Source of the DNA: Nanobdellota archaeon
Lineage (GTDB): Archaea > Nanobdellota > Nanobdellia > Pacearchaeales > GW2011-AR1
NCBI GenBank assembly: GCA_018830525.1
Contig: JAHJSH010000029.1
Span: 1 to 41,525 of the forward strand
Reading direction: 5' to 3'
DNA: 41,525 nt
The position numbers were made by a program, and so were the translations under genes. Below are positions 6,802 through 40,938 of this stretch, piece by piece. Numbering within the stretch: position 1 is the first letter of the stretch; the number at the start of each line of letters is the position of its first letter. The notes under the pieces were generated by a model. That model searched no databases. It was not told the origin of the DNA and saw only the letters and a program-made list of their open reading frames with translations.

Positions 6802-6802
6802 T

Positions 6803-8290: not shown

Positions 8291-8298
8291 TTTATTCT

Positions 8299-10984: not shown

Positions 10985-12307
10985 CTAACTCCTCTCGAGA
11001 TTACCGCTGACTCGTTTTGGCTCGAAGGTTCCTTTCATTCTTTTTTCGAATTTTTCTGAAGTTTGTTTCAATTGATCTTCGGGTTTTTGTGGTCCTATTT
11101 TTTTCTGTCTTTTGTAAAGATAATATCCCCCGGCTCCGAGTGCGGCGAAGATTAGGAGTGCAATTAGCCAGCCATATCCTTCGCCACCTTCTTTTTTCTG
11201 CGAAGGTTTAGCAATACAATTTCCCTTGCAACAGTATTCTCCGATATCAGTAAATTCGATAGTACCATTGCATAGTTGGATTCCAGAACTACAAACGCTT
11301 CCACCGAGTTCAGCACAGGATAAATTGGAGATTGCGAAATCTGAGATTTCGCTTCCGGCAGGGAGTATAAAAAAATCTAAGGGGAGGAAAAGAGTTTTCG
11401 TTTCGTTATTGTGGAGATAGGAGATGTTAATAGTTCCTTCGAAATGTCCAGGGAGTTTTGGTGCGATAGTTAAGGATAAATTTTTAATCTCTCTTCCTTC
11501 AAGGGTTTCTAGATTTTCTAATTCTATGAAATCAAAATCTGATGCTATTTCAAAATCAGTAAAATTGTCGTCGCCAAAATTAAATAATTGAAGTTGTTTT
11601 TCTATCGGTTCTCCGAGAGTAATGTTTAGTGAAATTGATTCTGGATTAGTTTTTAGATTGTGGCTTACTGGGAGAACTATGATCTCTCCAGGTTTTGTCC
11701 GTATTACGGGAATAAGGAATTCTTTGTATGCCAAGCAAGATAAGAATTCAAATTGGGATTCTTGTTCGAAGGATATTTTTTCTGACGCTAAAGGTTCTAG
11801 GGATATTTCTTGGTCTTGGCAGGTTACATTAAATGAAGAATTTCCTTTATTTGTGAAGGTTATATTTAATTCATTAGAGAATTTTATGAACCCGGGTTTG
11901 ATTGAAAGGATTTCTGTTCTGGTAACGTTCTCTTCTATGATTAATTCTTCCTGAACTTGGAAATCTTTTTTCAATATTGCGGCTTGAAGGTTTCCATCTT
12001 CTTTATAGAGAATATCAGAGATTTCCAATGTGAAGTTTCCTTCTCGTGTCGTGTAAGTATAGAAATAATAGGTTCCATTGAAATATGTTAAATCGAATTC
12101 GAAGAATACTTTTTTTCGGCCTTCTAAAAAAGTTATATCTGACTCCAGGATTTCTTTTGTTAATTCTCCGGGAATAGAAATTGTCGCGAAGATAGTTTCC
12201 CCGGGTTGAGTTTCGTTATATTGAAACGTAATCTCTGGGCCTGCAGATACTAGGGATATAGAGAATAATCCTAGGAATAATAAAAATAATATTGCATCAC
12301 CTTTCAT
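10985..12307 (-). CDS. Secreted, C-terminally membrane-anchored surface protein
   Basis: Signal peptide (AILFLLFLGLFSISLVSAG), many N-glycosylation-like sequons, C-terminal TM (GWLIALLIFAALGAGGYYLY) with basic tail. Confidence 0.65.
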   Translation of the reverse strand: MKGDAILFLLFLGLFSISLVSAGPEITFQYNETQPGETIFATISIPGELTKEILESDITFLEGRKKVFFEFDLTYFNGTYYFYTYTTREGNFTLEISDILYKEDGNLQAAILKKDFQVQEELIIEENVTRTEILSIKPGFIKFSNELNITFTNKGNSSFNVTCQDQEISLEPLASEKISFEQESQFEFLSCLAYKEFLIPVIRTKPGEIIVLPVSHNLKTNPESISLNITLGEPIEKQLQLFNFGDDNFTDFEIASDFDFIELENLETLEGREIKNLSLTIAPKLPGHFEGTINISYLHNNETKTLFLPLDFFILPAGSEISDFAISNLSCAELGGSVCSSGIQLCNGTIEFTDIGEYCCKGNCIAKPSQKKEGGEGYGWLIALLIFAALGAGGYYLYKRQKKIGPQKPEDQLKQTSEKFEKRMKGTFEPKRVSGNLERS

Positions 12308-12342
12308 AATTTCATTAAGGCCAGGGGATTAATAAAGTTTGC

Positions 12343-14250: not shown

Positions 14251-14284
14251 ATAGAATAAAGAGGTCGATTGTTTATAAAGATTG

Positions 14285-16182: not shown

Positions 16183-16259
16183 AGATTATGCAATGGCAGA
16201 GCCCTTGCGGATCACCGGGTAGGTGATCTGGTGATCAAAAAATCTTTAGATTTTTGCTA
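16183..16259 (+). ncRNA. Structured 5' leader element, copy 1 (upstream of pcn)
   Basis: Ungapped 77-nt match to 18766-18842 ending at the start codon; three predicted hairpins. Confidence 0.65.
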
Positions 16260-16982
16260 ATGATATTGAAATTGGACAATCCGAAGTTGCTTGCGGACGC
16301 AGTGAGTATTGTTTCTGAGTTGGTGAATGAGGTTCGGATTAAATTGCTTGAAGACGGGATGTCAATTGTTGCGGTCGATCCAGCGAATGTTGCGTTAGTT
16401 ATTTTTAAATTTCCGAAGGAGAGCTTTAGTCAATATGAATGTGGGAATGAAGTTTGGGGTGTTAATCTTGAGGATTTGAAGAGAATTTTGAAAAGGGCTT
16501 CGACTTCGTCTAGTATTGTTTTTGAGCAGGAAGATAATCAGTTGAAGATTTCTATTTTTGATAAGATTAAGAGAGTTTTTACTTTGGCCTTGATTAATGT
16601 TGAAAGTGAGGATAAAGATGTTCCCAATTTGAGTTTTGCTTGTAGGGTTGAGATGGATTCTTCGAATTTTTCACAATCGGTTGAGGATGCTCATATTGTC
16701 GCTGATTCTTGTTCTTTAATTGCGGGAGAGGGATTTTTTATGGTTGAAGGTTCGGGGAATTTGAATTCTGCTCGAGCCGAGTTTTCTGGGGACGAAGCAG
16801 TTATTTCTGGGATCGGAAAATCTAAATATTCCTTGGAATATTTAATGAAGTTTATCAAAGCAACGAAAATTTCTGACAAGGTTGTGATTAATTATTCTGA
16901 CGATTATCCCTTAAGATTGGATTTCCCGGGGGAGAAAATGGGTATAGGTTTCGTTTTGGCGCCACGTGTTGAAAATGATTAA
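16260..16982 (+). CDS. pcn: DNA polymerase sliding clamp (PCNA)
   Basis: LDNPKLLADAVSIVSELVNEVRIKLLEDGMSIVAVDPANVALV and C-terminal YPLRLDFPGEKMGIGFVLAPRVEND. Confidence 0.92.
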   Translation: MILKLDNPKLLADAVSIVSELVNEVRIKLLEDGMSIVAVDPANVALVIFKFPKESFSQYECGNEVWGVNLEDLKRILKRASTSSSIVFEQEDNQLKISIFDKIKRVFTLALINVESEDKDVPNLSFACRVEMDSSNFSQSVEDAHIVADSCSLIAGEGFFMVEGSGNLNSARAEFSGDEAVISGIGKSKYSLEYLMKFIKATKISDKVVINYSDDYPLRLDFPGEKMGIGFVLAPRVEND

Positions 16983-17730: not shown

Positions 17731-17985
17731 ATGAATATACATAATAAGATAAGGAGTATTATACCTATTAATATACTTACTAATATCCCTATTAATAGAC
17801 CTATGGAGATTCATAATAAAATATTAAGCTTAGTGAGGAAAGAAAAAGTTGTAACTAGTTCAGAGGTAGCCAGTTTTATAGGGGTTTCATGGAATACTGC
17901 AGAAAAATATTTACTAGAATTGGTTATTGATGGGAAAATTGAGAAGGTTAAAAAAATAGGAGTGAATTTATGGTTACTGAAATAA
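17731..17985 (+). CDS. Small winged-HTH protein
   Basis: KVVTSSEVASFIGVSWNTAEKYLLELVIDGKIEKVKKIG; TATA-like element in the preceding 30 nt; internal start at MEIHNKI possible. Confidence 0.55.
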   Translation: MNIHNKIRSIIPINILTNIPINRPMEIHNKILSLVRKEKVVTSSEVASFIGVSWNTAEKYLLELVIDGKIEKVKKIGVNLWLLK

Positions 17986-18734
17986 ATAATAAGCGTGGAC
18001 AGTTGACAATTTTTATTATCGTCGCTGTTGTGTTAGTTGTGGCTATCATCGCGGCGTTTTGGTTCATTGGAAAGAGAACTACTGAAACCCCAGCAAACTT
18101 GAATCCAAAACAATTTGTGCAGAAATGTGTGCGAGATGCCGTCGAGAATTCGGTTGAGAAGATGTTAGAAAATGGGGGACAGCGAATGCCGAGCCAAGCG
18201 ATTTCGTACCAGGGGACTGAATGGAATTATCTTTGTTATCAAGCAGACTTCTATCTGGGATGTTATAATTTGCATCCGATGTTGGAATTTTTGATTGAGA
18301 ACGAAATTAAGGAAGACACAAAGAGGGAGGTTCAAGCTTGTTTTGACTCGATGAGAGAAGATTTTGAGAGTAAGGGTTTTGATGTTTCTGGTGGTTCGAC
18401 AGATTATTCAATTGATTTGTTGCCGGGAATGGTCGAGGTTAATTTAAAGAAAAGAATTGATGTTGTTAGGGGAGATTCGTCGCAGAGTTACGAAGATTTT
18501 GGTACGAAGATTTTGTCTCCGATTTATGAATTGATGAGGATTGCGCGGGAAGTGGTAAATTCTGAATCACAATATTGTCACTTTGAATACAATGGCTATA
18601 TGCTTTTATATCCCGATTATGAGATTAGGAGAATTGACTACAGCGATAGTAAAATTTATCGTTTGATTGACCGTCGGACGAAAGCTGAATTTAAATTTGC
18701 AGTGAGGAGTTGTGCATTTGCGCCAGGAGTATAA
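17970..18734 (+). CDS. KRGQ-type membrane-anchored (pilin-like) protein, module A small partner
   Basis: NKRGQLTIFIIVAVVLVVAIIAAFW N-terminus; paralogous to 22696-23496 and 26681-27418 (FDSMREDFESKGFDVSGGSTDYSIDLLPGM). Confidence 0.65.
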   Translation: MVTEINNKRGQLTIFIIVAVVLVVAIIAAFWFIGKRTTETPANLNPKQFVQKCVRDAVENSVEKMLENGGQRMPSQAISYQGTEWNYLCYQADFYLGCYNLHPMLEFLIENEIKEDTKREVQACFDSMREDFESKGFDVSGGSTDYSIDLLPGMVEVNLKKRIDVVRGDSSQSYEDFGTKILSPIYELMRIAREVVNSESQYCHFEYNGYMLLYPDYEIRRIDYSDSKIYRLIDRRTKAEFKFAVRSCAFAPGV

Positions 18735-18765
18735 AGAGGATACATAAATGGAGAATAATAAATTT

Positions 18766-18842
18766 AGATTATGCAATGACCAAGTCCTTGCGAATCACCC
18801 CGTAGGTGATCTGGTAATCAAAAAATCGGAGGATTTTTGCTA
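18766..18842 (+). ncRNA. Structured 5' leader element, copy 2 (upstream of module A giant gene)
   Basis: Ungapped 77-nt match to 16183-16259 ending at the start codon; a compensatory pair change in stem 1. Confidence 0.65.
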
Positions 18843-21800
18843 ATGAATAATAAAAAAGCGATTGCGAGTTTTGAATTGGCCTTGTTGGTAGTTTCGCTGT
18901 TCGCGTTCTCCCATTTGATGTATGCCTCGGAAGGGGTTTTTGAAGAATTGGATGATATTTATGAAGAAGCACGAGCAGAGAATGCTAGACAAATTGCTGA
19001 TATGGCAACTCCTGAAAAAACTATTCCGAGAAAAACTATTTTGTCTTCGATAATTGGTTATTTGAAAAAGCCGATGATTCCTCAAGTGTCTGCGGAAATT
19101 ACGGAAACGATTATTGGATATGATGACTTTGGTCAACCAATTATTCTTACGGAAGAAACAACAATAACGAATTTTGAGATTTCATCTAATTCTTTCGGGT
19201 CCGGTTGTTGTGGTTTGACGACGGGAGGACAGAAATGTGCGACGGTATCTCCCGAAGATTGTGGGGCCAGTTCGCAGTTTGCCGAGGGAGCGTTATGTGA
19301 TTCTACATCGTTTTGTCAGAAAGGTTGTTGTTACGATGAGAGTTCAGGAACTTATGATAAGAATGTTTTGAAGACAGAATGTCCGAAGAGTTGGGTTAGG
19401 GATCCTAATTGTAATATGCCTGCGGCGAAATTGGGGTGTTGTATGCTTGGGACGTCCTCATTTTTTGAGACCTTAGGGCAATGCGAGGTCGATACTTTTG
19501 GACGGGCACTCGGAACTAATGCTGTCGTCGATTGGCGAGAAGATTTGAATGAGGCAGGATGTTTGATTCTTTCATCTATTCAGACCGAAGGTGCTTGTGT
19601 TTTGGCAGGAGGAGATTGTAAATATGGGACGGAAATTGATTGTTTAAGTTATCAAGGACAATTCAATGAAGGTTATCTTTGTACTTCTCCCAGCCTTAAT
19701 ACTTCTTGCGAGATGACAGAGCAAACGACTTGTGTCGAGGGAAGGGATGGTGTTTACTTCTTGGATTCTTGTGGAAACTATGCGAATGTTTATGATTCTT
19801 CAAGGAAAGATGATCCGACTTATTGGAACCAGATTGTCGCGCCGGAGGATATTTGTGGAGATAATGATGTTGAGGGAGGAAATGCCAAATCCAAGAGTTG
19901 TGGGAATTGTAATCGATTTTTGGGAGGGATTTGTAGTTCGGCTTCAGAGGATAATTTTGATGTAAATGTTGGAGAGTTTTATTGTAAGGATACAGGATGT
20001 ATGTATGATGGAGACCATTATGAGAATGGGGAATCGTGGTGTGTTTATGATGGAAAGATTGGGGATGGGGATGATATCGTTGGGTCGAGGCATTGGAAAT
20101 ATGTTTGTTCACAAGGGGTGACTCAGGTAGAACCTTGTGCAGATTATCGAAATCAGATTTGTGTTCAATCTAACACTTTTGAAGTGAATGGGACTGAGGC
20201 CCAATTTAGAAATGCAGCGTGTATTGCAAATAATTGGAGGGAATGTGTTGACTTGAATAGCCAGGAAGGAGGGCTAGAACGATGTGAGGAGACGCTGAAT
20301 TGTAGAATCGAAAAAATTGCGATTGCAGATAAATTTGCTTTTAGTGTATGTACGGGAAAATATCCTGGGGGATTTAGTTTTAGCGACGAGAGATATCAGG
20401 AGACGGCTAAGAAGATTTGTGGAATGGCGGATCAGACTTGTAAGGTAATTTACAAAGCTAAGACTTGGGGGGGCTGTGAGATCGCGGTTAATGAAGATTG
20501 TCTTGAAGAAGGATTCGCTCAAGGGATGAATGATTTATGCCGGGCCCTTGGAGATTGTGGGGGTGCGGTTAATGTCGAAGGAGTTTATAGTGAGAATTAT
20601 AATGTCAAGGAATCTCCAATGCTTGGCGCGGGAGCGATTGCTAAATTAGTGGCTATGGCGACGCCGATTAAGGGGCAGTTTGCTGAAGTGGAAGATTATA
20701 CAGAATTTTTGGAAGCTGCTGGGCTTATTGGAAGTCCGGGAGATCCGGGAGATGGAGAGGATGATGAAGGACTTATAAGTTCTAAAAATGTGAACATGGT
20801 TGGAGCAGGGATGGCTGGAATTGCATTTGCAGGATATGCTGCAGGATTTTCGGCATTTACTGTCGCTGCCGCTCCAGCTACAGGTATTTATGGGGCCACT
20901 TCCCTATCCCAAGTTGCCACCGCAGGGCAAGCATGGATGGGGGGAGCATCCGCAGGAACACCGGCAACATCTGCAGGAATGGCTCCTTTCGCGGGAGCGA
21001 TGATGGGAGCTGGAATCGGATTGATGGTAGGATTTATGGTTGCGAAGCAAATGGGTTTAAGCCCGGGTGGTTCGATTCTTATGGGAATTGGAGGAGCACT
21101 TATGGGGGTTAAGATAGCGAGTGTCCTACTGGGTGGAGGGAATGTATTGTTATTCACACCATTATTTTTTATCGCATTATTTTTAATTTTGATTGCGATG
21201 TATTTCAAGGCGAAGTGTGAGGCTATGAATACGGATGTAACTTTCGAATGTAAACCATGGCAACCGCCGACAGGAGGAAGTGATTGTGAGAAATGTAATG
21301 ATGATTTGTTAAAGCCGTGTTCGGAATATCGTTGTAAAAGCTTGGGAGCGGCTTGTGAATTGGTGAATGTTGGGGAAGAAAATGAGATGTGCCATTCTAA
21401 AGCAGATGATGGAAAGCCACCAGTTTTGAATCCTCAACTTGGAGTCATCTCTGAGGATATGGAATATGATGACATTACTGGTGGAGGATTTAGTATAACC
21501 TCTGTTGGTGGGGGATGTATCGAAGCTTATACTCCGTTGATTTTCGGGGTTGTTACTAATGAATTGGCGCAATGTAGGTTTGATATGATAGCAGAGGATT
21601 TTGCTGAAATGGATTTCGACTTGGGGGGAAATTCCTACAAGTATAATCATACTACGACGTTTACTTTACCGGATCCGAGTCATGGGCAGAGTCAGGGCGC
21701 GAATTGGACTGGAGATATAACATTATATGTGAAATGTCGGGATGCGTTTGGGCACGAGAATCCTGGGTTTTATCAAATTGATAGTTGTGTTAAAGAAGGT

Positions 21801-22688
21801 CCTGATAAAATGGGACCGGTGATAAGAGCAACTAATCCGGGTAATGATGCTATTGTCGGTTTTGCTGTTTCGGAAAAAAATGTGAGTATTATGACTAATG
21901 AGCTTTCGACTTGTCGATGGGATTCTTCAGATTTGGCTTATTCAGCAATGGCTAATTCCATGGAATGTACAGATACATTTGGACACCCGTCTAATAATCA
22001 AGGATATGTTTGTTCGGACGTTCTTCCAACTTCGAGAGCAGAGAATGTTTATTATATTCGATGTATGGATCAGCCGTGGTTGGACGCATTGAATAGAAGT
22101 GATGAGAGAAATCCAAATGAAGAGAGCCTTGTTTACATATTGAGAAAGCCGGAGAAAAGTATTGAGATTGATTGGATTGAGCCGAGTCAGGATTTTGAGA
22201 CGAATACGGAGATGACGTCGATTGAATTGAAGGTTCAGACTTCTGGTGGGGGCGAGTGGCATTTCTGTTCCTACTCATTCCAAAGCTTTGATAATCTGAT
22301 TGAAATGTTGGAGACGGGGGCTGAGAGAATTCATGTTCAGCCATTGAACCGGCCGGCGGGGACGGACAAGATTTATATTGAGTGTAAGGACGAGACTGGA
22401 GACTTTGTCCAAAGTACTATAGAGTTCAGAATTATTTATGATACTTCAACTCCGCAGATTGCGAGAGTTTGGCAAACGGGTGCAACGATGCATGTGATTA
22501 CAACCGAGCCTGCAGAATGTATTTATACTACTACTGGTTGTAGTTACAATTGGATTAATGGGACGGCGATGGGTAATGGGATAGAACATTCGATTACTAC
22601 GATTGCAGGTAAGAAATATTATATTAAATGTAAGGATGAGTTCGGAAATGCTCCTCCGGGATGTTCAATTGCGGTTCATGCCGTCTAG
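18843..22688 (+). CDS. Giant Cys-rich surface protein, module A
   Basis: Prepilin-like N-terminus NKKAIASFELALLVVSLFAF; Cys-rich SGCCGLTTGGQKC; repeated TNELAQCRFD/TNELSTCRWD motifs; central Gly/Ala-rich hydrophobic block. Confidence 0.7.
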   Translation: MNNKKAIASFELALLVVSLFAFSHLMYASEGVFEELDDIYEEARAENARQIADMATPEKTIPRKTILSSIIGYLKKPMIPQVSAEITETIIGYDDFGQPIILTEETTITNFEISSNSFGSGCCGLTTGGQKCATVSPEDCGASSQFAEGALCDSTSFCQKGCCYDESSGTYDKNVLKTECPKSWVRDPNCNMPAAKLGCCMLGTSSFFETLGQCEVDTFGRALGTNAVVDWREDLNEAGCLILSSIQTEGACVLAGGDCKYGTEIDCLSYQGQFNEGYLCTSPSLNTSCEMTEQTTCVEGRDGVYFLDSCGNYANVYDSSRKDDPTYWNQIVAPEDICGDNDVEGGNAKSKSCGNCNRFLGGICSSASEDNFDVNVGEFYCKDTGCMYDGDHYENGESWCVYDGKIGDGDDIVGSRHWKYVCSQGVTQVEPCADYRNQICVQSNTFEVNGTEAQFRNAACIANNWRECVDLNSQEGGLERCEETLNCRIEKIAIADKFAFSVCTGKYPGGFSFSDERYQETAKKICGMADQTCKVIYKAKTWGGCEIAVNEDCLEEGFAQGMNDLCRALGDCGGAVNVEGVYSENYNVKESPMLGAGAIAKLVAMATPIKGQFAEVEDYTEFLEAAGLIGSPGDPGDGEDDEGLISSKNVNMVGAGMAGIAFAGYAAGFSAFTVAAAPATGIYGATSLSQVATAGQAWMGGASAGTPATSAGMAPFAGAMMGAGIGLMVGFMVAKQMGLSPGGSILMGIGGALMGVKIASVLLGGGNVLLFTPLFFIALFLILIAMYFKAKCEAMNTDVTFECKPWQPPTGGSDCEKCNDDLLKPCSEYRCKSLGAACELVNVGEENEMCHSKADDGKPPVLNPQLGVISEDMEYDDITGGGFSITSVGGGCIEAYTPLIFGVVTNELAQCRFDMIAEDFAEMDFDLGGNSYKYNHTTTFTLPDPSHGQSQGANWTGDITLYVKCRDAFGHENPGFYQIDSCVKEGPDKMGPVIRATNPGNDAIVGFAVSEKNVSIMTNELSTCRWDSSDLAYSAMANSMECTDTFGHPSNNQGYVCSDVLPTSRAENVYYIRCMDQPWLDALNRSDERNPNEESLVYILRKPEKSIEIDWIEPSQDFETNTEMTSIELKVQTSGGGEWHFCSYSFQSFDNLIEMLETGAERIHVQPLNRPAGTDKIYIECKDETGDFVQSTIEFRIIYDTSTPQIARVWQTGATMHVITTEPAECIYTTTGCSYNWINGTAMGNGIEHSITTIAGKKYYIKCKDEFGNAPPGCSIAVHAV

Positions 22689-22695
22689 TGATAAA

Positions 22696-23496
22696 ATGGA
22701 AAAAAAAGTAAGTTTAAAAAAACTTTCATGTTTTTCTCGAGGAAACTCTCGAAAAAAAGCACAACTAACGATTTTTATTATTGTTGCGATGCTAATAGTC
22801 GTAGCTATCTTGGGTTTAATTTTCATTAGGGGCGGCGAAAAAATTGGAAAGGTTCATATTGAAGACCCCAAACAATTTATCCGGAAATGTGTCGCTGATG
22901 CCGTCGAGGATGCACTTCCAGTAATTTTGAAAAATGGGGGAGTAATTGATCCGGAAAATATAGTTACATATCAGGATGAAGAATATAATTATCTTTGTTA
23001 CCAGGCGGAGTATTATAAGCATTGTATTAATACACATCCGATGCTGGAGAGCCGAATAGAAAAAGAAATAAAGGAATATACTCGACAAGCTGTTCAATAT
23101 TGTTTTGACTCGATGAGGGAAGATTATGAAAGTCGGGGGTTTGATGTTTCTGGCGGTTCGACAGATTATTCAATTGATTTGTTGCCGGGAATGATTGAAA
23201 TTCGTCTGAGGAAAAATGTGGAGATTAGTCGGGAAGGAAGTTCGGAGCTGGTTGATGTTTTTGATACTTATGTTAATACTCCGCTTTATTGGTTGACGAT
23301 GATTGCCCGAGATATTATTAATGATGAGGCGAGTAATTGTGATGTTAATTATAATGAATATGTGTTGATGTATCCGAAATATAAAATCTCGAAGACGAAT
23401 TATGATTTTTCGGAGATATATATTATCGAGGACAGAAATACTAGGGATGAATTTAAATTTGCTGTGAGGGGCTGTGCATTTGCGCCGGGATTATGA
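22696..23496 (+). CDS. KxAQ-type membrane-anchored protein, module B small partner
   Basis: RKKAQLTIFIIVAMLIVVAILGLIFI; shares FDVSGGSTDYSIDLLPGM and FKFAVRGCAFAPG with module A. Confidence 0.65.
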   Translation: MEKKVSLKKLSCFSRGNSRKKAQLTIFIIVAMLIVVAILGLIFIRGGEKIGKVHIEDPKQFIRKCVADAVEDALPVILKNGGVIDPENIVTYQDEEYNYLCYQAEYYKHCINTHPMLESRIEKEIKEYTRQAVQYCFDSMREDYESRGFDVSGGSTDYSIDLLPGMIEIRLRKNVEISREGSSELVDVFDTYVNTPLYWLTMIARDIINDEASNCDVNYNEYVLMYPKYKISKTNYDFSEIYIIEDRNTRDEFKFAVRGCAFAPGL

Positions 23497-26400
23497 AGAA
23501 AAATTTAATTTTGTTTTTAGGAATTTTATTTGTCTTAGTTTTCTCATTTAGTTTAATTGTAGCTTCGGGATGCTGTAGCCTCACAAATGGTGGAGCGCAA
23601 TGTGTGAATACTCTTCATTTTGAATGTGCTGATGGGGCAGATTTTTCAGAAGGGGCGGATTGTGAATTTACTTCCTATTGTCAGGAAGGTTGTTGTTACG
23701 ACGAAGATATTGGGGTATTTGATTCGCGAGTTTTGAAAACTGCATGTGATGTCGATTGGGTTAAGAATCCTACCTGTGACTTACCGGCGGCTCAGCGAGG
23801 CTGTTGTGTTCTTGGAGAAGAGACTATTTATGAAACAGAAGGGCAATGTTGGGTCGATACCGTCGAGAGAGCTTTGGGCCCGAATAGTGAAGTGGACTGG
23901 AGGGCGGTAGATAGACAGACATGTTTTGGAATTGCGGAATATCAGAGTCGTGGTGCGTGTGTTACAGACAATCAGGGATGTACTTTTGTGACTGAGAGTG
24001 AATGTTGGGAACAGGGAGGACAGTTTAGTACAAATTATCTTTGTACTTCTCCCAGCCTTAATACTTCTTGTGAGATGACTGGAGAAACAAGTTGTGTCGA
24101 AGGTAGGGATGGTGTTTACTTTGTGGATTCTTGTGGAAACATTGCAAATATCTATGATTCTTCAAAATTAAATGACCCAGATTATTGGAGCCAGGTAATT
24201 CGGGTGGAAAGTTCTTGTGGATTTGGTGATGTGGATGGGAATGCTAATTCGACTAGTTGTGGAAATTGTGATCGTTTTGCAGGAGGTATGTGCCGTTCAG
24301 CGATAGAGAATAATTTTGATGTGAACTCTGGAAATTTTTATTGTAAAGACCTTTCGTGTTATTATAATGGGACAACCTATGACAATGGAGAGTCGTGGTG
24401 CGATTATGATGGTGTAATTGGAAATGGATTGGATCCGGCAGGTTCGAGACATTGGAGATATACTTGTAATTATGGGGAAATCCAAATTGATGCTTGTGAC
24501 GATTATAGGAATGATATTTGTGTTCAGAATTTTTTGAAAGAGAATGCGGGAGAGGATGCTGTTGATGCTCGGTGTGTGAAGAATGATTGGAGAGAATGTA
24601 TAGATTATAATGAAGAATCAGATGCAGATGGTTGTAATAAGAATCCGTTTTGTGAGATTCGGGAAGTTACGATTGACGAATTTAGAGTTAGCATCTGTAG
24701 ACCAAAGTATCCGGGAGGATTTGATTTCATAAATGTAAGTGAAAAAAGACAAGAAGATAATGAAGAAGTTTGTGGATTAGCGACTCGAACATGTACTTCC
24801 TTTTATGTTAAAGTATTTAGTGGAACGAGTTTTGTGTGGAAATGCCAAGTAAATTGTGAATGTGAAACTATCTCTTTTGTAGAATCAATGAATGATCTTT
24901 GTATTGGGTTGGGAGATTGTGGAGGTTATGTGAATTATCAAGGTAATTATACTGATGAGGGATATGATTCAAATAGGGGGAAGATTGGTGAAGCGCTGAT
25001 TTCTTCTTACAAGAATAATATAATTCCGGTTCCAGGATTATTTATCGTAATGTCTGAGTACCTCAATGCAACTGCGAAGGGGGAGGGATCTTTAGGTGGT
25101 TCTGGTGGGGGGTATCCTGAAAGAAACATTATACAAAAACTTCTAGGAGGTATTGGATTATGGGGAGACATTAAAAGTGTGAAGTCAACATTTACTTGTA
25201 AACCGTGGCAGCCTCCGGTAGGGGGAAGCGATTGTACAAACTGTAATAATGACCCTTTGAGGCCGTGTTCGAACTACCGTTGCGAAAGTCTTGGTGCGGG
25301 ATGTGAAATTGTTAACAAAGGAACTGAAGAAGAGATGTGTGATTCAGGGGAAGATGATGGGATGCCCCCGAGCCTTGGACCTTCGTTGGAAACTATTTCA
25401 GATAATGAAATGTATAGTAATGTTGGAGAGAACGGGTTTGATTTGACTTCGAAGAATGGGGGATGTATCCCGGCTTATACTCCGATAGAATTTGGAATAG
25501 TGACAAATGAATTGGCGCAGTGTAAGTTTGATATTGAAATGGTGGAGTATGAAGAAATGGATTACGACCTTGGGGGGAATAATTATATTTATGACCATAA
25601 GACGATATTTACCTTGCCGGACCCGAGTCATGGGCAGAGTCAAGGATTAGACTGGGAAGGAGATTTGACTTTCTATATCAAATGCCGAGATAGGTTTGGA
25701 CATGAGACTCCAGAATTTTATACTGTTGACATGTGTGTGATAGAAGGTCCTGATAACGCGGCTCCTTTGATTCGAAGGTTTGACCCGATAGATAATACTC
25801 TTTTTAGATTTGGGACAACCCAGGCGAATATTAGTATAATCACAAATGAACTTGCAACTTGTCGATGGAGTTTTGGCGATGTGGCATATGGGAATATGGA
25901 AAATGAAATGGTTTGTGCGGATGTTCTCAATTCCCCTTCATCGACTCAAGGATATGTTTGTACCGACACTTTAGAATTAGTTGATACGACTAATACTTAT
26001 TATATCCGATGTATGGACCAGCCGTGGTTAGAAGGAACTGCCGACGTGGGTGATAGAAATCCTAATCAAGAAAGTACGCTTTATCGATTGAGAGTTCCGG
26101 AAGAAATGATTGGTATTGAGAAGATTAGTCCGGATAGTGATTTTGAAAGCCCGACTGCGCAGACTGAAATAGAACTAAAGGTTCGGACGATTAACGGTGG
26201 TGAAGAGCATACTTGCTCTTACTCATTCTCGGGATATACAAATATGGTTGAGATGTTTGAGACTGGAACGGTTGGAACTCATGTTCAGCCATTAAAACGG
26301 CCGGCGGGGACGGATAAAATTTATATTGAATGTGTTGATGAATCTGGCGACTCCGTTCAAGGCAGTACCGAGTTTAGAATTATTCATGATACTTCAACTC

Positions 26401-26636
26401 CACAGATTGCGAGAGTTTGGCAAATTGGAAACACCCTTCATCTTATCACTGTGGAAAATTCGGAATGTGTTTACTCGACGGAAAACTGTAACTTCAAATG
26501 GGAAGATGGAACTTCGACTCAGGGTGGTGAAGAGCATACGATTAGTGTTATTCCGGGTAAAAAATATCATATTAAATGTAAAGACGCGTTCGAAAATGCT
26601 CCATTGGGATGTTCAATAAGTGTTCATGCTATTTAG
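23493..26636 (+). CDS. Giant Cys-rich surface protein, module B (Sec or lipoprotein-type signal)
   Basis: MKKNLILFLGILFVLVFSFSLIVASGCCSLTNGG; near-identical blocks with module A; start overlaps the previous stop (ATGA). Confidence 0.7.
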   Translation: MKKNLILFLGILFVLVFSFSLIVASGCCSLTNGGAQCVNTLHFECADGADFSEGADCEFTSYCQEGCCYDEDIGVFDSRVLKTACDVDWVKNPTCDLPAAQRGCCVLGEETIYETEGQCWVDTVERALGPNSEVDWRAVDRQTCFGIAEYQSRGACVTDNQGCTFVTESECWEQGGQFSTNYLCTSPSLNTSCEMTGETSCVEGRDGVYFVDSCGNIANIYDSSKLNDPDYWSQVIRVESSCGFGDVDGNANSTSCGNCDRFAGGMCRSAIENNFDVNSGNFYCKDLSCYYNGTTYDNGESWCDYDGVIGNGLDPAGSRHWRYTCNYGEIQIDACDDYRNDICVQNFLKENAGEDAVDARCVKNDWRECIDYNEESDADGCNKNPFCEIREVTIDEFRVSICRPKYPGGFDFINVSEKRQEDNEEVCGLATRTCTSFYVKVFSGTSFVWKCQVNCECETISFVESMNDLCIGLGDCGGYVNYQGNYTDEGYDSNRGKIGEALISSYKNNIIPVPGLFIVMSEYLNATAKGEGSLGGSGGGYPERNIIQKLLGGIGLWGDIKSVKSTFTCKPWQPPVGGSDCTNCNNDPLRPCSNYRCESLGAGCEIVNKGTEEEMCDSGEDDGMPPSLGPSLETISDNEMYSNVGENGFDLTSKNGGCIPAYTPIEFGIVTNELAQCKFDIEMVEYEEMDYDLGGNNYIYDHKTIFTLPDPSHGQSQGLDWEGDLTFYIKCRDRFGHETPEFYTVDMCVIEGPDNAAPLIRRFDPIDNTLFRFGTTQANISIITNELATCRWSFGDVAYGNMENEMVCADVLNSPSSTQGYVCTDTLELVDTTNTYYIRCMDQPWLEGTADVGDRNPNQESTLYRLRVPEEMIGIEKISPDSDFESPTAQTEIELKVRTINGGEEHTCSYSFSGYTNMVEMFETGTVGTHVQPLKRPAGTDKIYIECVDESGDSVQGSTEFRIIHDTSTPQIARVWQIGNTLHLITVENSECVYSTENCNFKWEDGTSTQGGEEHTISVIPGKKYHIKCKDAFENAPLGCSISVHAI

Positions 26637-26680
26637 TGGAATATAATAGAATTTATAAAGAAAAGATGGTTGGAATAAAT

Positions 26681-27418
26681 ATGGGAAAAAAGGGGCAGGT
26701 TACGTTGTTTATTTTGATAGCAGTGATAATAGTTTCCGTAATTCTTGTTTTCTTTTTGTGGATACGTCCGGAATATTTTCTCGAGAAATCTAGGGGGTTG
26801 AAGTTTGAAGGTTGTGTGCGAGATGCACTTGAAGAATCTATCGATGACTTGGGTATGAATGCAGGGTTTGTTAATCCAACATTTACTTATCCTTACAATG
26901 GGGAAGATTTTACCTATCTGTGTTATACTGAAGAATACTATCAGACCTGTGTTGTGCAAGTTCCTTTTTTGAAGAATACTTTTGAAGCGCAGGCGAAGGG
27001 AGCATTGAAGGAGAAAATTGATTCTTGTTATTCTAGTTCTATTGAAGATTTGAGGGCGCAGGGTTATGAGGTTAGTTCTGGAACTGTAGATTATGAAATT
27101 CTTCTTGAGCCGGGAGTTGCGAAGGTTCAGATTGAGGCGCCTACGACGGTTGGTTCTCAGAAGTTTACGAGGTTTAATGTTGAATTGAATTCTCATATAT
27201 ATGATATGCTTATGATTTCTACTTCGATTTTGCAATATGAGGCGCAGTTGGGAGATTCAGATGTGACTTCTATGATGGTACTTTATCCGGATTATATTAT
27301 TGATAAGATTAAGCGGAGCGATGGGACGACAGTTTATATTTTGGAAGATAAAGTTTTTGGAACTAAATTTCAGTTTGCTAGCAAGAGTCTTGTTTGGCCA
27401 GTAGGATATTCACTATGA
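26681..27418 (+). CDS. KKGQ-type membrane-anchored protein, module C small partner
   Basis: MGKKGQVTLFILIAVIIVSVILVFFLW; YEVSSGTVDYEILLEPGV equivalent; TATA-like atttataaag about 25 nt upstream. Confidence 0.6.
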   Translation: MGKKGQVTLFILIAVIIVSVILVFFLWIRPEYFLEKSRGLKFEGCVRDALEESIDDLGMNAGFVNPTFTYPYNGEDFTYLCYTEEYYQTCVVQVPFLKNTFEAQAKGALKEKIDSCYSSSIEDLRAQGYEVSSGTVDYEILLEPGVAKVQIEAPTTVGSQKFTRFNVELNSHIYDMLMISTSILQYEAQLGDSDVTSMMVLYPDYIIDKIKRSDGTTVYILEDKVFGTKFQFASKSLVWPVGYSL

Positions 27419-27726
27419 TGAGCGCAAAAGAAATATTTGAATTTTTGAAACCTAATAAGTGGAACGTTATTGTGACTATATTCTTGGTGGTAGTAATATA
27501 TGTCGTCTGGAATTATATTTTGCCTGGGACAAATTACCTTAATGCATTGAGGGTTCCAGAAGAGCTTGGTGCGTCGGGAAGTAGATTAATCGGAAAACTT
27601 ATAGCTTCGGTGATGGCCGGATTTATCGTGATAACATATACTTTAATTAGTTTGGTTGTTTATTTTATCAAGGAAGATTATAAAGATGATAAATCCAAAA
27701 AGGAGGACAATAAAGATGAAAAGTAA
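27415..27726 (+). CDS. Small membrane protein with two TM segments
   Basis: IVTIFLVVVIYVVWNYIL and IASVMAGFIVITYTLISLVVYF; ATGA overlap with the preceding gene. Confidence 0.6.
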   Translation: MMSAKEIFEFLKPNKWNVIVTIFLVVVIYVVWNYILPGTNYLNALRVPEELGASGSRLIGKLIASVMAGFIVITYTLISLVVYFIKEDYKDDKSKKEDNKDEK

Positions 27727-30700
27727 CCAAAGGTCATACCCCCTCGGGGCACGAAAACCTGTGAACAGGCGAGAACCTCTGCGAGGTAAAAAAGTTATTG
27801 CAAGTTTTGAATTGATTTTGATGATGGTGTCTTTATTTGCGTTTAGTTTTTTGATTGGTGCTACCATTCCGGTTGTTGATGAAGTTCAGGATGGAGATTC
27901 GGCAATAAAAATTCTTTTGTCCGGGATGTTTAATCGTTTGAAAAAGCCGATGGTTCCAGTTGTCTCTGCTCAGGCTGTGGTTTCTCAACCGAGTTATTGT
28001 TGTGAGAAGACGAGTGATGGATCTTATTGTATAAATACTGATGAGTCAAATTGTGTGGATAATTTTAAATCTGCGCCCTCTTCTTGTGAGACGACTTCAT
28101 ATTGTAGATTAGGAACTTGTTATGAATCTGGGGAGGGAATTTGTATGGCGAATACACCTCAAAGAGTTTGTGATGCTAACGGTGGAACTTGGGATGCTAG
28201 AGAGATTAATGAAGTTCCTCAATGCCAGCTAGGATGTTGTATTATTGCGGAGCAGGCGGCGTTTGTTCCGTTGGTCCGATGTAAGAGATTGTCCACATTG
28301 TTTGGAGTTGAGAATGATTATCGGATGGATGTCACTAGTGAAATTGCTTGTATTGCTACTGCTCAATCGCAGGATATGGGAGCTTGTGTTTTTGAAAAAG
28401 AGTTTGAGAGACTTTGTAAATTTACGACTCGGGGCGAATGTGGGGCGAGTCAGGAAGTTGAAACGGTTGGTGGAAATATTAGTGATGGAGCAATAGAAAC
28501 TACAACTGAGAAAAAGTTTTATGAAAATTATTTATGTTCGGCAGAAGAGTTGAATACTGCTTGTGCTAAGCAGACTTCTACCGGGTGTTATGATGGGAAG
28601 GTCTATGAGTTTGACTCGTGTGGGAACCGGGAGAATGTTTATTCTTCAGATAAAGATGCGAGTTGGAATAAGGGTATGGTCGCGGAGCCAGGAGAAGTTT
28701 GTGCTGAAAATGATGGTTCAAATAAAAATTGTGGAAACTGTGAATATCTTTTGGGCTCGCGGTGTGCAGAGTGGGATGGAATTTTGGGAATCGGAAAGCC
28801 TTCCGGAAGCGACCATTATTGTCAGACTACCGAATGTGTGGACCGGGATGGTAATAAGAGGCTGAATGGGGAATCGTGGTGTGTTAATGACGGGCAGATT
28901 GGAGAAGGAAGTGATACTGTTGGCTCGAGATATTATAAGGAAGTTTGTGTGGATGGTGAAGTTCGAGTTGAGCCGTGTGCCGATTTTAGGAAGGAAGTAT
29001 GTATAAGTGGTTCGATAGAGATTGGATCTGGGTCTTTTGGGACTGCAGCATGTAGGGTGAATAGATGGCAGACTTGTGCGCAAATTACTGATGAAGAGGA
29101 TTGTACTAATATTGATAAAGTTGATTGTATGTGGTTGCCTTCTGTGACTGGAATGGTCTTTAGTGTGAGTGCGGACGGTGGAGGTCAGGCATTTAGTAAT
29201 CCTACGGCAAGTGGAAGTGGAGAGGCGTTTGGTAATCCTACGGCAAGTGGGGATCCTTCGATTACAGGAAGTGTTATTTCTCCGATAACCGGTAATGCGC
29301 TCTTTGGGGGTGGTGGTGATGAAGAGACTGAAGAGACTAAGACAAATCGGGGAGGAGGAATTTGTCTTCCTAATTTTCCTCCGGGATTGGAATTCTGGGA
29401 GGAAAACACCGCAAAGCAGATGTGTGGTGTTGCTAATGCGAAATGTACTGCTATTTTTGAGAAGGGTTTGATTGGGGGGAGCTGGAAATGTATCGAGAAT
29501 TGTGAATGTTTAGAAGATGATTGGGCAGTAAGTGCAAACCAGATTTGTGTGGCGCTTGGTGATTGTGGAGGTTATATTAATTATCAAGGAGAATATTCGG
29601 ATGAGGGTTATTTATGGAGATTTGATGGGGAGGAAAAAGAGATTAAGGAAGAAGGTATTATGGAGAAGATAGGTCAAGGATTTACTGGACTTGTCGCGGC
29701 TATGACTGGATTGGTTGCTGGAGGATTTGGAATGATTACTGGAATGTCTGAAATTGGTGGTGCCTCAGAGACAGTTACTGTGGACGCCCCAAGTGTGGAA
29801 GTAGCAAAAGATTCTGCAATTGGTGATGCCCTTAGTGATGGTGGTGGGGGTGCTGGTGGAGTTGAGAAGGTTGCTGAAGGGGGAGTTGAGAAGGTTGCTG
29901 AAGGGGGAGTTGAGAAGGTTGCTGAAGGGGGAGTTGAGAAGGTTGTTCCTGGTGCTATTACTACGGCGACTACATCTCTTGTACCAATAAAGGGAACTAG
30001 TTTTTTATCTAAGACATTTTTGACGAAAAAAATGACTGCAGCTACTGGTGGTGGTGGATTGATGGCGAATGCTGTTCTTTCTGGATTCCAGTGGGGGGCA
30101 ATTGCTTATGGGGCTGGACAATTAATTGGACCAATGATTGGATTAAATAAGAAGAACACTAATGCACTTTCAATGGCAATGGGTGCAGGATTTTTTGCGT
30201 ATAAGACCGCTTCGATTTATAATGCGGCTGCAGTTAAAGCTGCTACGATTGCTTCGACTCCAGGTACAACTGTAGCACCTGCGACTAATCTTTTGACAGT
30301 TAACCCAGCACTTACTGGAGTTGTAATTGGAGTTGTAATTTTCCTTGTGATGTATAAAAAGACTGAAACAAAGACTATTGAATTTAATTGTATGCCATGG
30401 CAGGCGCCGACGGGCGGAGATGTTTGTGAAGTATGTAATGATGAGAATTTGCCGTGTTCGGAATATAGATGTCGGTCGCTTGGACAGAATTGTGAAATTG
30501 TTAATAGTGGAAGTGATCAAGAGCGTTGTGTGAATGTTCGTCCGAATGATGTGGACCAGCCAGTTATTAGGCCTAATGATGAGAAGTTGACAGAAGGCCA
30601 TAAATACACTAATGTTAAGAACTCGCCACCGGGACCTGGATTTACGATTATTAATTTGAATAGTAGTGATGGATGTTTGAAAGCGTTTACTCCGCTTGAG

Positions 30701-31876
30701 TTTGGTGTGAATACTAATGAGCCAGCGCAATGTAAGATTGATTTCAAGCACACTTTGAAGTTTGATGATATGGCGGCGTATATGGGTGGAAGTAACTTTT
30801 ATGCTTATAATCATTCCGAGCAGTTTGCCCTTCCAGGAGCTGAAGTGTTAGCGAATGCCTCTTTCATCTTAGAGAATGGAAGGGATTGGTTGTTCTATAT
30901 TAGATGTAAAGATACGAATGGTAATGCGAATGATGCGGAGTATGCGGTGAAGTTCTGTATTGACCCAACGCCAGATAGCACCGCTCCAGAAGTTAAGGCG
31001 ACTTCGATTTTGAATGGTGGTTGTGTTGCAGAAGAACAGTCTAATGCGGAAGTTGAGTTCTATACTAATGAGCCAGCAGAATGTAGATGGAGTAAGGAGG
31101 ATCAGGATTATGATAGTATGCAAAATGATATGAGTTGCACTAATGCATTATTCCAAATGAACGCGCTTCAGTTGTTTACATGTAGGACAGTTTTGACTGG
31201 AGTTTCTAGAGACGAGACGAAATTCTATATTAGATGTAAAGACCAGCCAGGTAAGCCAGATAATGATAGGAATGAAAATCAGGAGAGTTATGAGTTTAGC
31301 CTTCGGGGAAGTACTGGGTTGAAGATGAAGAACTTGCAACCAAATGGGACAATTTTCGGAGCGGTTAATCCTGCGCCTGTTGAGTTATACGCGGAGACAT
31401 TGTTTGGATGTAATGATGGTCAGGCAGTTTGCTTTTATGCAACAGAAGACAAGAATAGTGAGTATATTCAGTTCTTTGATACAAATACTATTGATGGAAT
31501 CCATACGCAGAGATTAGATTTGGGCGCTGGACAACACAAGTATTATATTAAGTGTGTTGATGAAGGTGGAAATGTTGTGAAGGATACTCTTAATTTCAAG
31601 CTGGATATTGACGAGAACGCGCCAGTTGTTGCGAGAGTTTATGAAGAAGACGATTTGTTGAAATTGGTGACTGTACGGAAGAGTGAATGTGTTTATACTT
31701 TTGACGATTGTGATTTCAGTTTCCAGGAAGGAACAGTGATGCCTTACGCTAATTCGACGGTTCATGTTGCGGAGTGGAATGAAGAGAAGACATATTACAT
31801 TAAGTGTCGGGACGAATTTAGAAACGAAGATGCCGACTGTTCAATTATCGTTAGACCGAGCCGGAATTTTCTTTAG
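27716..31876 (+). CDS. Giant Cys-rich surface protein, module C
   Basis: ATG preceded by aggagg; KKVIASFELILMMVSLFAFSFL; paralogous throughout to modules A and B (CMPWQAPTGGDVCEVC, TNEPAQCKID, TNEPAECRWS). Confidence 0.7.
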   Translation: MKSNQRSYPLGARKPVNRREPLRGKKVIASFELILMMVSLFAFSFLIGATIPVVDEVQDGDSAIKILLSGMFNRLKKPMVPVVSAQAVVSQPSYCCEKTSDGSYCINTDESNCVDNFKSAPSSCETTSYCRLGTCYESGEGICMANTPQRVCDANGGTWDAREINEVPQCQLGCCIIAEQAAFVPLVRCKRLSTLFGVENDYRMDVTSEIACIATAQSQDMGACVFEKEFERLCKFTTRGECGASQEVETVGGNISDGAIETTTEKKFYENYLCSAEELNTACAKQTSTGCYDGKVYEFDSCGNRENVYSSDKDASWNKGMVAEPGEVCAENDGSNKNCGNCEYLLGSRCAEWDGILGIGKPSGSDHYCQTTECVDRDGNKRLNGESWCVNDGQIGEGSDTVGSRYYKEVCVDGEVRVEPCADFRKEVCISGSIEIGSGSFGTAACRVNRWQTCAQITDEEDCTNIDKVDCMWLPSVTGMVFSVSADGGGQAFSNPTASGSGEAFGNPTASGDPSITGSVISPITGNALFGGGGDEETEETKTNRGGGICLPNFPPGLEFWEENTAKQMCGVANAKCTAIFEKGLIGGSWKCIENCECLEDDWAVSANQICVALGDCGGYINYQGEYSDEGYLWRFDGEEKEIKEEGIMEKIGQGFTGLVAAMTGLVAGGFGMITGMSEIGGASETVTVDAPSVEVAKDSAIGDALSDGGGGAGGVEKVAEGGVEKVAEGGVEKVAEGGVEKVVPGAITTATTSLVPIKGTSFLSKTFLTKKMTAATGGGGLMANAVLSGFQWGAIAYGAGQLIGPMIGLNKKNTNALSMAMGAGFFAYKTASIYNAAAVKAATIASTPGTTVAPATNLLTVNPALTGVVIGVVIFLVMYKKTETKTIEFNCMPWQAPTGGDVCEVCNDENLPCSEYRCRSLGQNCEIVNSGSDQERCVNVRPNDVDQPVIRPNDEKLTEGHKYTNVKNSPPGPGFTIINLNSSDGCLKAFTPLEFGVNTNEPAQCKIDFKHTLKFDDMAAYMGGSNFYAYNHSEQFALPGAEVLANASFILENGRDWLFYIRCKDTNGNANDAEYAVKFCIDPTPDSTAPEVKATSILNGGCVAEEQSNAEVEFYTNEPAECRWSKEDQDYDSMQNDMSCTNALFQMNALQLFTCRTVLTGVSRDETKFYIRCKDQPGKPDNDRNENQESYEFSLRGSTGLKMKNLQPNGTIFGAVNPAPVELYAETLFGCNDGQAVCFYATEDKNSEYIQFFDTNTIDGIHTQRLDLGAGQHKYYIKCVDEGGNVVKDTLNFKLDIDENAPVVARVYEEDDLLKLVTVRKSECVYTFDDCDFSFQEGTVMPYANSTVHVAEWNEEKTYYIKCRDEFRNEDADCSIIVRPSRNFL
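29858..29945 (+). repeat. 24-bp in-frame minisatellite (GGVEKVAE-like), about 3.7 copies
   Basis: ggagttgagaaggttgctgaaggg repeated perfectly three times plus a 16-nt partial unit. Confidence 0.9.
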
Positions 31877-38319: not shown

Positions 38320-40938
38320 ATGAATAAAATATTTAGAAAAGCTATTACAATTTTAGGAAGTGCTGCTTTGATTGGAATGACTGTAGGTGCGGCGGCTGCT
38401 GCTTCTTACCCATCTCCTTTTACAAGTAATACTGCTATTGTTTACGGTTCTAATGCTGCTTTATCCGATAGAGCTGCAGTTACAGACATTGCTGAAAATA
38501 TTGACGCAGCTACTGCAGTTTCTGCAGGAGGTGCTGTGACTACAACTTCTGGAGATATAGTTTCATTAGATACTGGTTCTACCCGTATCTATTTGAATAC
38601 ATCGTTAAATACTGCGAAATCAGTATTTACAAAAACTGCTTTACCAGTGGTTCTTGCTGATGAGACTTTCTCAGGAAATGTAGATGCTGCTATGACTCAA
38701 ACAATTAAGTTTGCTGCTGGCGCAGCTGCAGGTGACGATAATAGTGGTAAGGTAATTTTTGCGAAACAACCAAGTAGTAATACAGACCCTAAGTTTGGTA
38801 TTAGTTTGGGAACTTCGCATTCTGATGATATTCTTTACAATGCTTCTGTTACTTTTGGAACTGCTGTGATGTTTAATCACACTGATTCAACAGGTGAAAA
38901 TATAAGATTATTTGGAAAGGATTTTGTTGTTAGTACTGCTACTACTGCTAGTAAATTGGTATTATTTTCTTCTGCTACTGAAATAAACTTAGTTGCGGGG
39001 GGGGCTAGTGCTAATCCAAGTTCTACAGTTGTGATTGATGGAACTTCTTATGAAGTTGAGTTAGTTACAGGTACAAGTACAACTGCTACAATCGCTGTAA
39101 ATGGTGAAAGTAAAGAAGTTACTGAAGGTTCTTCAAAGAAGATCAATGGAATCGATGTTGCTGTTAAATCAGTTACAGAATCCACTGCTCTTAGTACAGT
39201 TACTGCAAGTATTCTTGTGGGTTCTAATAAGATAACATTCCAGGCTTCTAGCCAGGTTCTTATGGGTTCAGATGATGATCCTGTAGATGGAACTTATGTT
39301 TATCTAACTGGAACTCCAGATTCATTAACAGGTTTAACTATTGCTACATTCAGACCAGACTCAAGCACTGATGCTATTCTTCCCGGACAGTCTTTCGTAG
39401 ACCCAGTCTTTGGAAGTTTCAAGGTAGATTTTGCTGGAATGAATATCGCAGATAATTCTGATGACAGGGAAACTATTTCTGTTCAGAATTCTGGAGACGA
39501 CACAATATCTGTGAAATTTACAGATGCTAATGCAAACGCTGGAACTGTTGAATTTGCACACAACGCAAGTGGATTGTTTTACTTAGCTGATGATAACAAC
39601 TACACTATGCATGTGATGGAAATGGCTAACTTGACAGAGAATGATTACATTATTATCGGAAACGAAGAATACGGAAAAATTCTTCAATTGACTGATATAT
39701 ACAATCAGACAACAGGTACCACATCTAAAACAAATGATAGGGTAAAATTCCAGAATGTTATGGATAGCACAGATACTTATAATACTGTGTTTACAACTAC
39801 TGAAGGATCAGGAACTCTTACTGTAGAGGGTAAGGAGTATACTGTTACTTTCTCTGGTTCAGATGATACTGGATGGGCAACTATTAAGAATCCTACTGGA
39901 GAGTCTGCTAATGCAAACACATTCGTAGTTTATCCTACTGTGAGAACTAAAAATAATGGATTGCTTGCTGTTTATGAGCCATTGAATATCGTATTAGGTA
40001 ATAATCGGACTACTTCCGGTGGAGCAAATTCTGTTACAACACTTAGATTCCCTGATGGTGATGGATATACGGATTTAGTTGCTACCTTTGCAGGTAATGT
40101 AACTGATGCTGTGTGGACACTTAGTGGTGCTGTTGCCGATACTTTGAATACTTCGGTGGGAGATTCCGCTACTCTTGTTATAGGACAATTAACCTATAAC
40201 CTAAGTACATCAGGTACTGCTAACGCAACTACGTTATACCTTATCGATCCTGAAGGAACTGCTAACATTGATCAACCGGCTATTGTTCTTTTCGAAGGAA
40301 AAGACGATAAGAATGAGTATCATGCTGTTGTTGTAGATTTAGAAGATAATTCTGCGGCTACTAGCTCGAACGGTGTTGGAGTGAATGATGTATTGTTTAG
40401 TTCTGACTACTACCATGCTTCTGCAACTCTTAACAGTGACAGTGACCTTACACAGGATGCTGATTTCTGGGGGACAATCACAACATTAAATGCTGATGAT
40501 TCCGACCAGAAGACAGTCTCGATAAGTTATCCAGGTAGCCAAATATATGCGCAAGTATATGTTGGTGAAGCGGATGCTACTATTGGTGGAGACGGTACTA
40601 GTGTAGGTGTAAAAACTTACGCTGATACTGAGGCTGCTTCATTCGCTGGAATGAATTTAGTTGTTGTTGGTGGTTCTGCTATCAACGCAATTGCTGCTGA
40701 GTTACTTGGTAGTGCTTACAGTGAAGGTGCGTTTACTACTGCTACTGGAATCGGTGCTGGAGAATTCTTAATCAAATCTTACGATAGATCTGGTAAGACT
40801 GCTCTATTAGTCGCTGGTTACAATGCTGCTGATACTGAAAAGGCTGCGAAGGTTCTTCTTAACGAAGTAATCAACACAGCTGTAGGAAAGGAATACAAAG
40901 GTGTTTCTTCTACTGAAGCAATCACGGTTATAGCTTAG
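38320..40938 (+). CDS. S-layer protein (methanogen-type family)
   Basis: Signal peptide, YPSPFTSNTAIVYGSNAALSDRAAVTDIAENI N-terminus; C-terminal SYDRSGKTALLVAGYNAADTEKAAKVLLN. Confidence 0.88.
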   Translation: MNKIFRKAITILGSAALIGMTVGAAAAASYPSPFTSNTAIVYGSNAALSDRAAVTDIAENIDAATAVSAGGAVTTTSGDIVSLDTGSTRIYLNTSLNTAKSVFTKTALPVVLADETFSGNVDAAMTQTIKFAAGAAAGDDNSGKVIFAKQPSSNTDPKFGISLGTSHSDDILYNASVTFGTAVMFNHTDSTGENIRLFGKDFVVSTATTASKLVLFSSATEINLVAGGASANPSSTVVIDGTSYEVELVTGTSTTATIAVNGESKEVTEGSSKKINGIDVAVKSVTESTALSTVTASILVGSNKITFQASSQVLMGSDDDPVDGTYVYLTGTPDSLTGLTIATFRPDSSTDAILPGQSFVDPVFGSFKVDFAGMNIADNSDDRETISVQNSGDDTISVKFTDANANAGTVEFAHNASGLFYLADDNNYTMHVMEMANLTENDYIIIGNEEYGKILQLTDIYNQTTGTTSKTNDRVKFQNVMDSTDTYNTVFTTTEGSGTLTVEGKEYTVTFSGSDDTGWATIKNPTGESANANTFVVYPTVRTKNNGLLAVYEPLNIVLGNNRTTSGGANSVTTLRFPDGDGYTDLVATFAGNVTDAVWTLSGAVADTLNTSVGDSATLVIGQLTYNLSTSGTANATTLYLIDPEGTANIDQPAIVLFEGKDDKNEYHAVVVDLEDNSAATSSNGVGVNDVLFSSDYYHASATLNSDSDLTQDADFWGTITTLNADDSDQKTVSISYPGSQIYAQVYVGEADATIGGDGTSVGVKTYADTEAASFAGMNLVVVGGSAINAIAAELLGSAYSEGAFTTATGIGAGEFLIKSYDRSGKTALLVAGYNAADTEKAAKVLLNEVINTAVGKEYKGVSSTEAITVIA

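Follow-up and report, generated by a model that had tools for sequence, protein, structure and literature searches.

The archaea of the phylum Nanobdellota are tiny and probably host-dependent, and how DPANN archaea attach to their hosts is a long-standing question. SPEARE and other giant DPANN surface proteins are very large, are found in host-dependent archaea and carry Ig-like repeats, like the giants described below. CryoET has shown a large attachment organelle (PMC11420986) and nanotubes (PMC11329633), and the proteins behind them are largely unassigned. Secretion ATPases without identifiable cognate pilins are noted in nanoarchaea by Makarova et al. 2016 (PMC4858521), and a 2019 dark-matter survey places diverged DPANN pilins beside type IV pilus (T4P) genes (PMC6393860).

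A conserved cell-surface gene cluster, apparently undescribed, is found in a genome of this phylum (0.96 Mb, 86% complete). It lies in the window (the whole stretch of DNA that was analysed, which begins a 218 kb contig and spans 41.5 kb). Assignment to DPANN follows from PCNA, an S-layer-like gene, and the nearest named relatives, Ca. Pacearchaeota and other Nanoarchaeota. Three pairs of a small protein (S) and a giant (G) are followed by four pilin-like genes, P1 to P4 (Table 1). An earlier note on this DNA had called it a candidate for an undescribed system, and no description of the locus in DPANN was found in the accessible parts of the literature searched, which mostly did not include subscription papers and preprints. 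It is regarded as a new gene system because the core families tested are unmatched, because gene order and co-occurrence define the system, and because T4P fails on two features.

The locus resembles archaeal T4P (TadA/TadC; PMC4858521) in having a basic residue and G/A-Q before a hydrophobic helix and small pilin-like genes in a group, and large Cys-containing secreted partners, as the giants are here, exist in some archaeal T4P loci. Unlike in archaeal T4P, however, S has no Glu at +5 and carries a globular alpha/beta domain for which no relative has been solved, the ATPase and TadC genes are neither in nor near the locus, and TadC is not clear in some genomes that bear it. The minor pilin-PilY1 tip also combines a small pilin-like cluster with one large surface protein, a possible tip adhesin. 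The locus differs from it in that G1-G3 have no PilY1/PilC match in Pfam/NCBIfam, each giant comes with an S of its own, and the giants have a Cys-rich head and an Ig-like stalk. A putative archaeal secretion system (arCOG01314/arCOG02884) shares membrane-anchored, Ig-like and S-layer-like proteins in a conserved neighbourhood, but the MoxR ATPase, vWA and DUF4350 genes of that system (PMC5898192) are absent among the window genes scanned. In contrast to SPEARE, the giants are tied one-to-one with S, and with P1-P4, in a fixed locus, and Pfam scans found no protease or other enzymatic domain in them.

Table 1. Features of the locus, in positions of the window
Feature	Position	Strand	Description
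PCNA	16254..16982	+	Pfam PCNA_N/PCNA_C; conserved upstream landmark of the locus
Small winged-HTH gene	17731..17985	+	Pfam HTH matches; overlaps the start of S1; homologues in 10 loci
S1	17970..18734	+	Basic-G-Q N-terminus, single membrane helix (8-34), alpha/beta ectodomain
G1	18843..22688	+	Hydrophobic segment at the N-terminus; Cys-rich half and Ig-like half, with 3-4 hydrophobic helices between them
S2	22696..23496	+	266 aa from ATG 22696; clusters with S1 in the S tree
G2	23493..26636	+	One N-terminal hydrophobic segment; no middle helices
S3	26681..27418	+	ATG 26681; second S class, whose usual partner in relatives is a split giant
Small two-helix membrane protein	about 27415..27726	+	Between S3 and G3; ORF and helix prediction
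G3	27716..31876	+	Fused form; most relatives encode separate N and C halves
P1	32955..33455	+	Pilin-like membrane protein (KRGQQ...); homologues in 35 loci, order conserved
P2	34385..35329	+	Pilin-like membrane protein (KRGQF...); order and N-terminal motif conserved
P3	35724..36224	+	Pilin-like membrane protein (KAQMKIQQM...); order and N-terminal motif conserved
P4	36214..36711	+	Pilin-like membrane protein (RGQQEMVGF...); order and N-terminal motif conserved
S-layer-like protein	38320..40938	+	Sub-threshold Pfam S_layer_C; conserved downstream end of the locus

Three S-G pairs had been reported at 17970-31876, and six long plus-strand ORFs are indeed present there, with the lengths given before (S1 254, S2 266, S3 245, G1 1281, G2 1047, and G3 1386 aa). 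Paralogy, as claimed, holds for both partners across the three pairs and is far above chance by BLASTP: S1 and S2 are 53% identical (E 7e-97) and S1 and S3 32% (E 2e-43), while G1 and G2 match at 59% and 49% (E 0 and 2e-155) and G1 and G3 are 30-32% identical (E 2e-99). The shared motifs cited for the small and giant partners are visible in the S and G alignments. The third pair, with 30-35% identity to pairs 1 and 2, is an older branch. G1-G3 have 64-66 Cys each (4.7-6.1%). From PCNA through P4 all genes are on a single strand with intergenic gaps of -38 to +108 bases, which gives this part an operon-like look. The two-helix protein between S3 and G3 has no homologue among the fetched loci. 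Between G3 and P1 (31916-32914) lies a gene similar to 3-oxoacyl-ACP synthase III/HMG-CoA synthase, which has no relatives in the other loci.

GTDB genomes scanned with the giant alignment gave 74 loci, labelled nearly all as Pacearchaeota, Woesearchaeota or Nanoarchaeota. The same locus also occurs under two 'Patescibacteria' labels, in one instance with PCNA; these are probably mislabelled bins. The usual order is PriS (on the opposite strand), PCNA, S-G, S-G, P1-P2-P3-P4, a small opposite-strand gene, and the S-layer gene, where the second giant is often split (Gn-Gc). S or G is found within six ORFs after PCNA for all 41 PCNA genes in the named loci. The S-layer-like gene has homologues in 23 loci, mostly after P4. 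Across loci, identity is 32-44% for S and G, 51-57% for PCNA, and 24% for the S-layer protein. Thus S and G evolve more slowly than the S-layer protein and faster than PCNA, a pattern that fits a structural machine better than it fits hypervariable adhesins alone.

Complete giants number 152: 62 full-length ones, 55 N halves with a median of 559 aa, and 35 C halves with a median of 748 aa. In 33 cases an N half and a C half are consecutive. The split falls in a linker between the Cys-rich and Ig-like halves, which carries two to four extra hydrophobic helices in G1 and G3; G2 lacks these helices, and its linker is disordered in the structural model (residues 528-556). A constant lipoprotein partner between the giant halves was considered and rejected, since a lipobox-like ORF is there in just 10 of the 33 cases. 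The type of giant follows the S tree. A class B clade of 52 rows (support 100/89) has half-length giants in 47 and full ones in 5, and S3 is placed inside it, in a tree whose bootstrap is not fully settled. S1 and S2 group apart from it, in a clade whose giants are mostly full. Because S1/S2 and S3 fall in separate clades, the row of three pairs is read as an old two-class module with an extra copy of the first class. The 'triplicated module' of the earlier note therefore holds for the number of pairs, but not as a simple triplication.

The earlier note took the retention of pairs to imply a functional two-component unit and suggested examining genomic pairing. Of the S genes in the named loci, 115 have a downstream neighbour that can be read, and in 104 of these G comes directly after S; in most of the others MNT/HEPN toxin-antitoxin genes or another ORF stand before G. 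The great majority of homologues are thus paired, and the refuting outcome named in the earlier note, mostly unpaired genes, did not arise. The two partners are also coinherited. In 39 genomes with at least two pairs each, distances among S correlate with those among the Cys-rich halves of the neighbouring G (Mantel r=0.81), whereas partner swaps within genomes give a mean r of 0.27 and a maximum of 0.53 (1000 trials). In one distant genome (locus L143) the two are fused in a single ORF, the S domain at 3-225 and the Cys-rich domain of G at 274-612. Pairing, coinheritance, and this one fusion support the S-G pair as a real two-component unit, at the level of sequence comparison. The S domain is also N-terminal in longer proteins of 600-1000 aa in several relatives. 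A stand-alone 632 aa protein with the S domain at its start is encoded elsewhere in this genome (L154 280-2175, minus strand).

In the AF2 model of S1 (pLDDT 92.9) an alpha/beta domain comes after a membrane helix, and Foldseek found no match to S at E<=0.001 in PDB or among viral models; S is predicted to be a new fold. The model of G2 (pLDDT 87.0, pTM 0.58) has a Cys-rich half, and another half made of a Cys module and Ig-like sandwiches. As modelled, G is a Cys-rich head with an Ig-like stalk. Foldseek matches of G2 are solely to generic Ig/FN3/cadherin-like adhesion stalks, which give no functional clue. Many Cys are invariant among distant giants, and the Cys may well form disulphide bonds in extracellular domains. 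Searches of S and P4 against Pfam/NCBIfam, as single proteins and as alignments, returned chance-level matches alone, and profile searches of PDB sequences had no match. With 27 giants against Pfam, Ig-like matches alone were obtained, and these are weak and limited to a few giants.

In archaeal class III signals, a basic residue and G/A precede position +1, a hydrophobic helix follows, and prepilin peptidase trims at this point. A [KR][GAS]Q motif with a hydrophobic helix immediately after it is found in 100 of 117 S and 88 of 128 P1-P4, against 1 of 166 G and 1 of 447 other ORFs. Since it resembles the class III signals, it suggests that S and P1-P4 are trimmed by prepilin peptidase at G/A-Q. 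Residue +5 of S is Phe in 91 of 117 and another non-Glu residue in 26; it is never Glu. P1-P4 of the window likewise have no Glu at +5, and in P4 a Glu is conserved at +3 rather than +5. Homology between P1-P4 and S, if any, is confined to the N-termini. The tie between the pairs and the downstream pilin-like genes, drawn in the earlier note, is upheld by the conserved order, the common N-terminal signal, and strict co-occurrence. Giants themselves were considered as pilins from the G1 sequence KA-IASFEL, with Glu at +5, and this was rejected: it is not kept in G2 or most relatives, and the Q motif occurs in the one G counted above.

Of the 380 genomes sampled, 323 (~85%) carry S, and its absence is all-or-none for whole families. 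P2 and P4 are present in 20/20 S-positive and 0/16 S-negative genomes tested (Fisher p 1e-10, uncorrected for kinship), where genomes were chosen partly by S status and the S-negative set represents a limited number of families. Full-length giants are detectable by the model in genomes with strong S matches. None of 20 S-negative genomes has one; what matches there is Ig-like repeats in other proteins. Where S matches weakly, the giants have diverged beyond the reach of the model; still, four such loci from distant families keep the order, with a protein bearing the S domain, then at least one giant (~930 to 4888 aa), and then P1-P2-P3-P4 (P4 is outside the detectable matches in one of the four). 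S, G, and P are one conserved, co-occurring gene set. This six-family set, missing as a whole from the other genomes tested, offers with its defined two-component unit and predicted new fold concrete targets for proteomics, localisation, and structure determination. In one distant relative (L164 5237-19903) S is followed by a giant encoded in one frame of 4888 aa or more.

The earlier note saw in the pairs and pilin-like genes a surface appendage or contact apparatus. The link to the pilin-like genes stands, while an appendage or a role in contact is conjectural: S and P1-P4 of the window lack Glu at +5, the motor genes are unlinked, and three near-complete genomes keep the locus without a clear TadC. 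Tentatively, the locus is best read as encoding a membrane-anchored envelope or contact complex that is processed by prepilin peptidase and does not need the T4P motor. This is favoured because of the pilin signal, S without Glu at +5, the unlinked motor, and three genomes without clear TadC. A prepilin peptidase encoded elsewhere would trim S and P1-P4 at G/A-Q, leaving each anchored by one helix. Each S would dock its own giant via the alpha/beta ectodomain, and the giant may extend into or through the S-layer with its disulphide-rich head and Ig-like stalk. P1-P4 would be a common base into which one to three S-G pairs plug, so that different pairs could be different tips on one platform. 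Its role might be envelope organisation, contact with partner cells, or both, and the T4P motor would probably be unneeded. If this is true, the prepilin-peptidase signal is used for large envelope complexes outside pili.

The alternative that survives best, though unlikely, is a T4P tip or pseudopilus built by TadA/TadC encoded elsewhere, in which P1-P4 and S act as minor pilins with G as a PilY1-like tip adhesin; the locus would then be a variety of T4P, not a separate kind. The pilin-like N-termini of S and P1-P4 agree with it, and four small pilin-like genes beside a giant resemble the minor pilin-PilY1 tip complex (PMC7541494). It would also suit the nanoarchaeal ATPases for which PMC4858521 notes no identified cognate pilins. 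As the earlier note stated, neither a secretion ATPase nor a prepilin peptidase is present in the window. Both exist elsewhere in the same genome, the peptidase gene ~150 kb away on the same contig and the T4P ATPase with two TadC genes on another contig. Their presence fits a tip, but the ATPase/TadC locus has its own pilin-like genes, and Glu at +5, as noted, is never found in S (Phe 91/117). With one Pfam model on draft genomes, TadC is clear in 17 of 20 S/P-positive genomes, not found in G160 and G204, and marginal in G061 (E 6.6e-4). These three, of 90-100% estimated completeness, all retain S, P2, P4, and prepilin peptidase. Because TadC is also found in 16/16 S-negative genomes, the S/P set and TadC are taken to be distributed independently, which argues against the tip. 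Prepilin peptidase occurs in 20/20 S/P-positive genomes and also in most S-negative ones, hence it is not specific.

Less probable again is S-layer anchoring or assembly, where the giants tether the lattice to the membrane, S and P1-P4 anchor them, and there is no role in cell contact. The S-layer-like gene at the end of many loci, the position beside the core genes PCNA and PriS, the wide occurrence of S, and the Ig-like stalks of the giants are consistent with such a tether. Families lacking S altogether, however, are presumably also enveloped, tandem and split paralogous pairs exceed the needs of a uniform anchor, and S-layer homologues are found elsewhere too. An uptake or secretion pseudopilus for DNA or protein, with the giants as receptors, is very improbable: the class III-like signal on many subunits and the much reduced biosynthesis of DPANN, some of which are believed to take up nucleic acids through pili (PMC9563170), agree with it, but the conserved genes of the locus include none for a channel, a nuclease, a DNA-binding protein, or an ATPase.

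The preferred envelope or contact complex can be extended to a motor-free, peptidase-processed contact machine of S-G on a P1-P4 base, present in most of the phylum, that physically couples DPANN to their hosts, where swappable giants set the choice of partner. This is doubtful.

Several other genes were noticed in the window and elsewhere in this genome. An MNT nucleotidyltransferase and a HepT-like protein (PF01934, E 1.5e-22) form a toxin-antitoxin pair between P1 and P2 (33510-34395), and similar MNT/HepT pairs are inside the locus in relatives (L013, L021, L025, L032, L035, L036, L045, and L078). Small RelE-like and AbrB-like genes just after P4 (36890-37398, minus strand) are apparently a second toxin-antitoxin module. 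By PriS (10985-14301, minus strand) are genes for two secreted or membrane proteins, one of 440 aa and a Cys-rich one of 652 aa with a C-terminal helix; each is conserved in 25 loci, and they perhaps belong to the same envelope programme. The T4P operon of this genome (L101 1351-12152) encodes the ATPase and two TadC along with its pilins, namely several of KKGISAIVATVLIIL type, one with KKGQVWVETV, and one of 628 aa in which DUF285-like repeats are numerous; a Pfam N_methyl search of this genome had no match. At L101 13240-15663 is a HerA-like ATPase frame with a seemingly intein-like insert, which starts with CLTGDTMI and ends with FIANGLISHN. Toward the beginning of the window, a region of low GC (26-29%; 669-8305) encodes Eco57I/TaqI-like and N4/N6 DNA methylases and an AAA_14/DUF4143 ATPase, and is probably a mobile or defence island.
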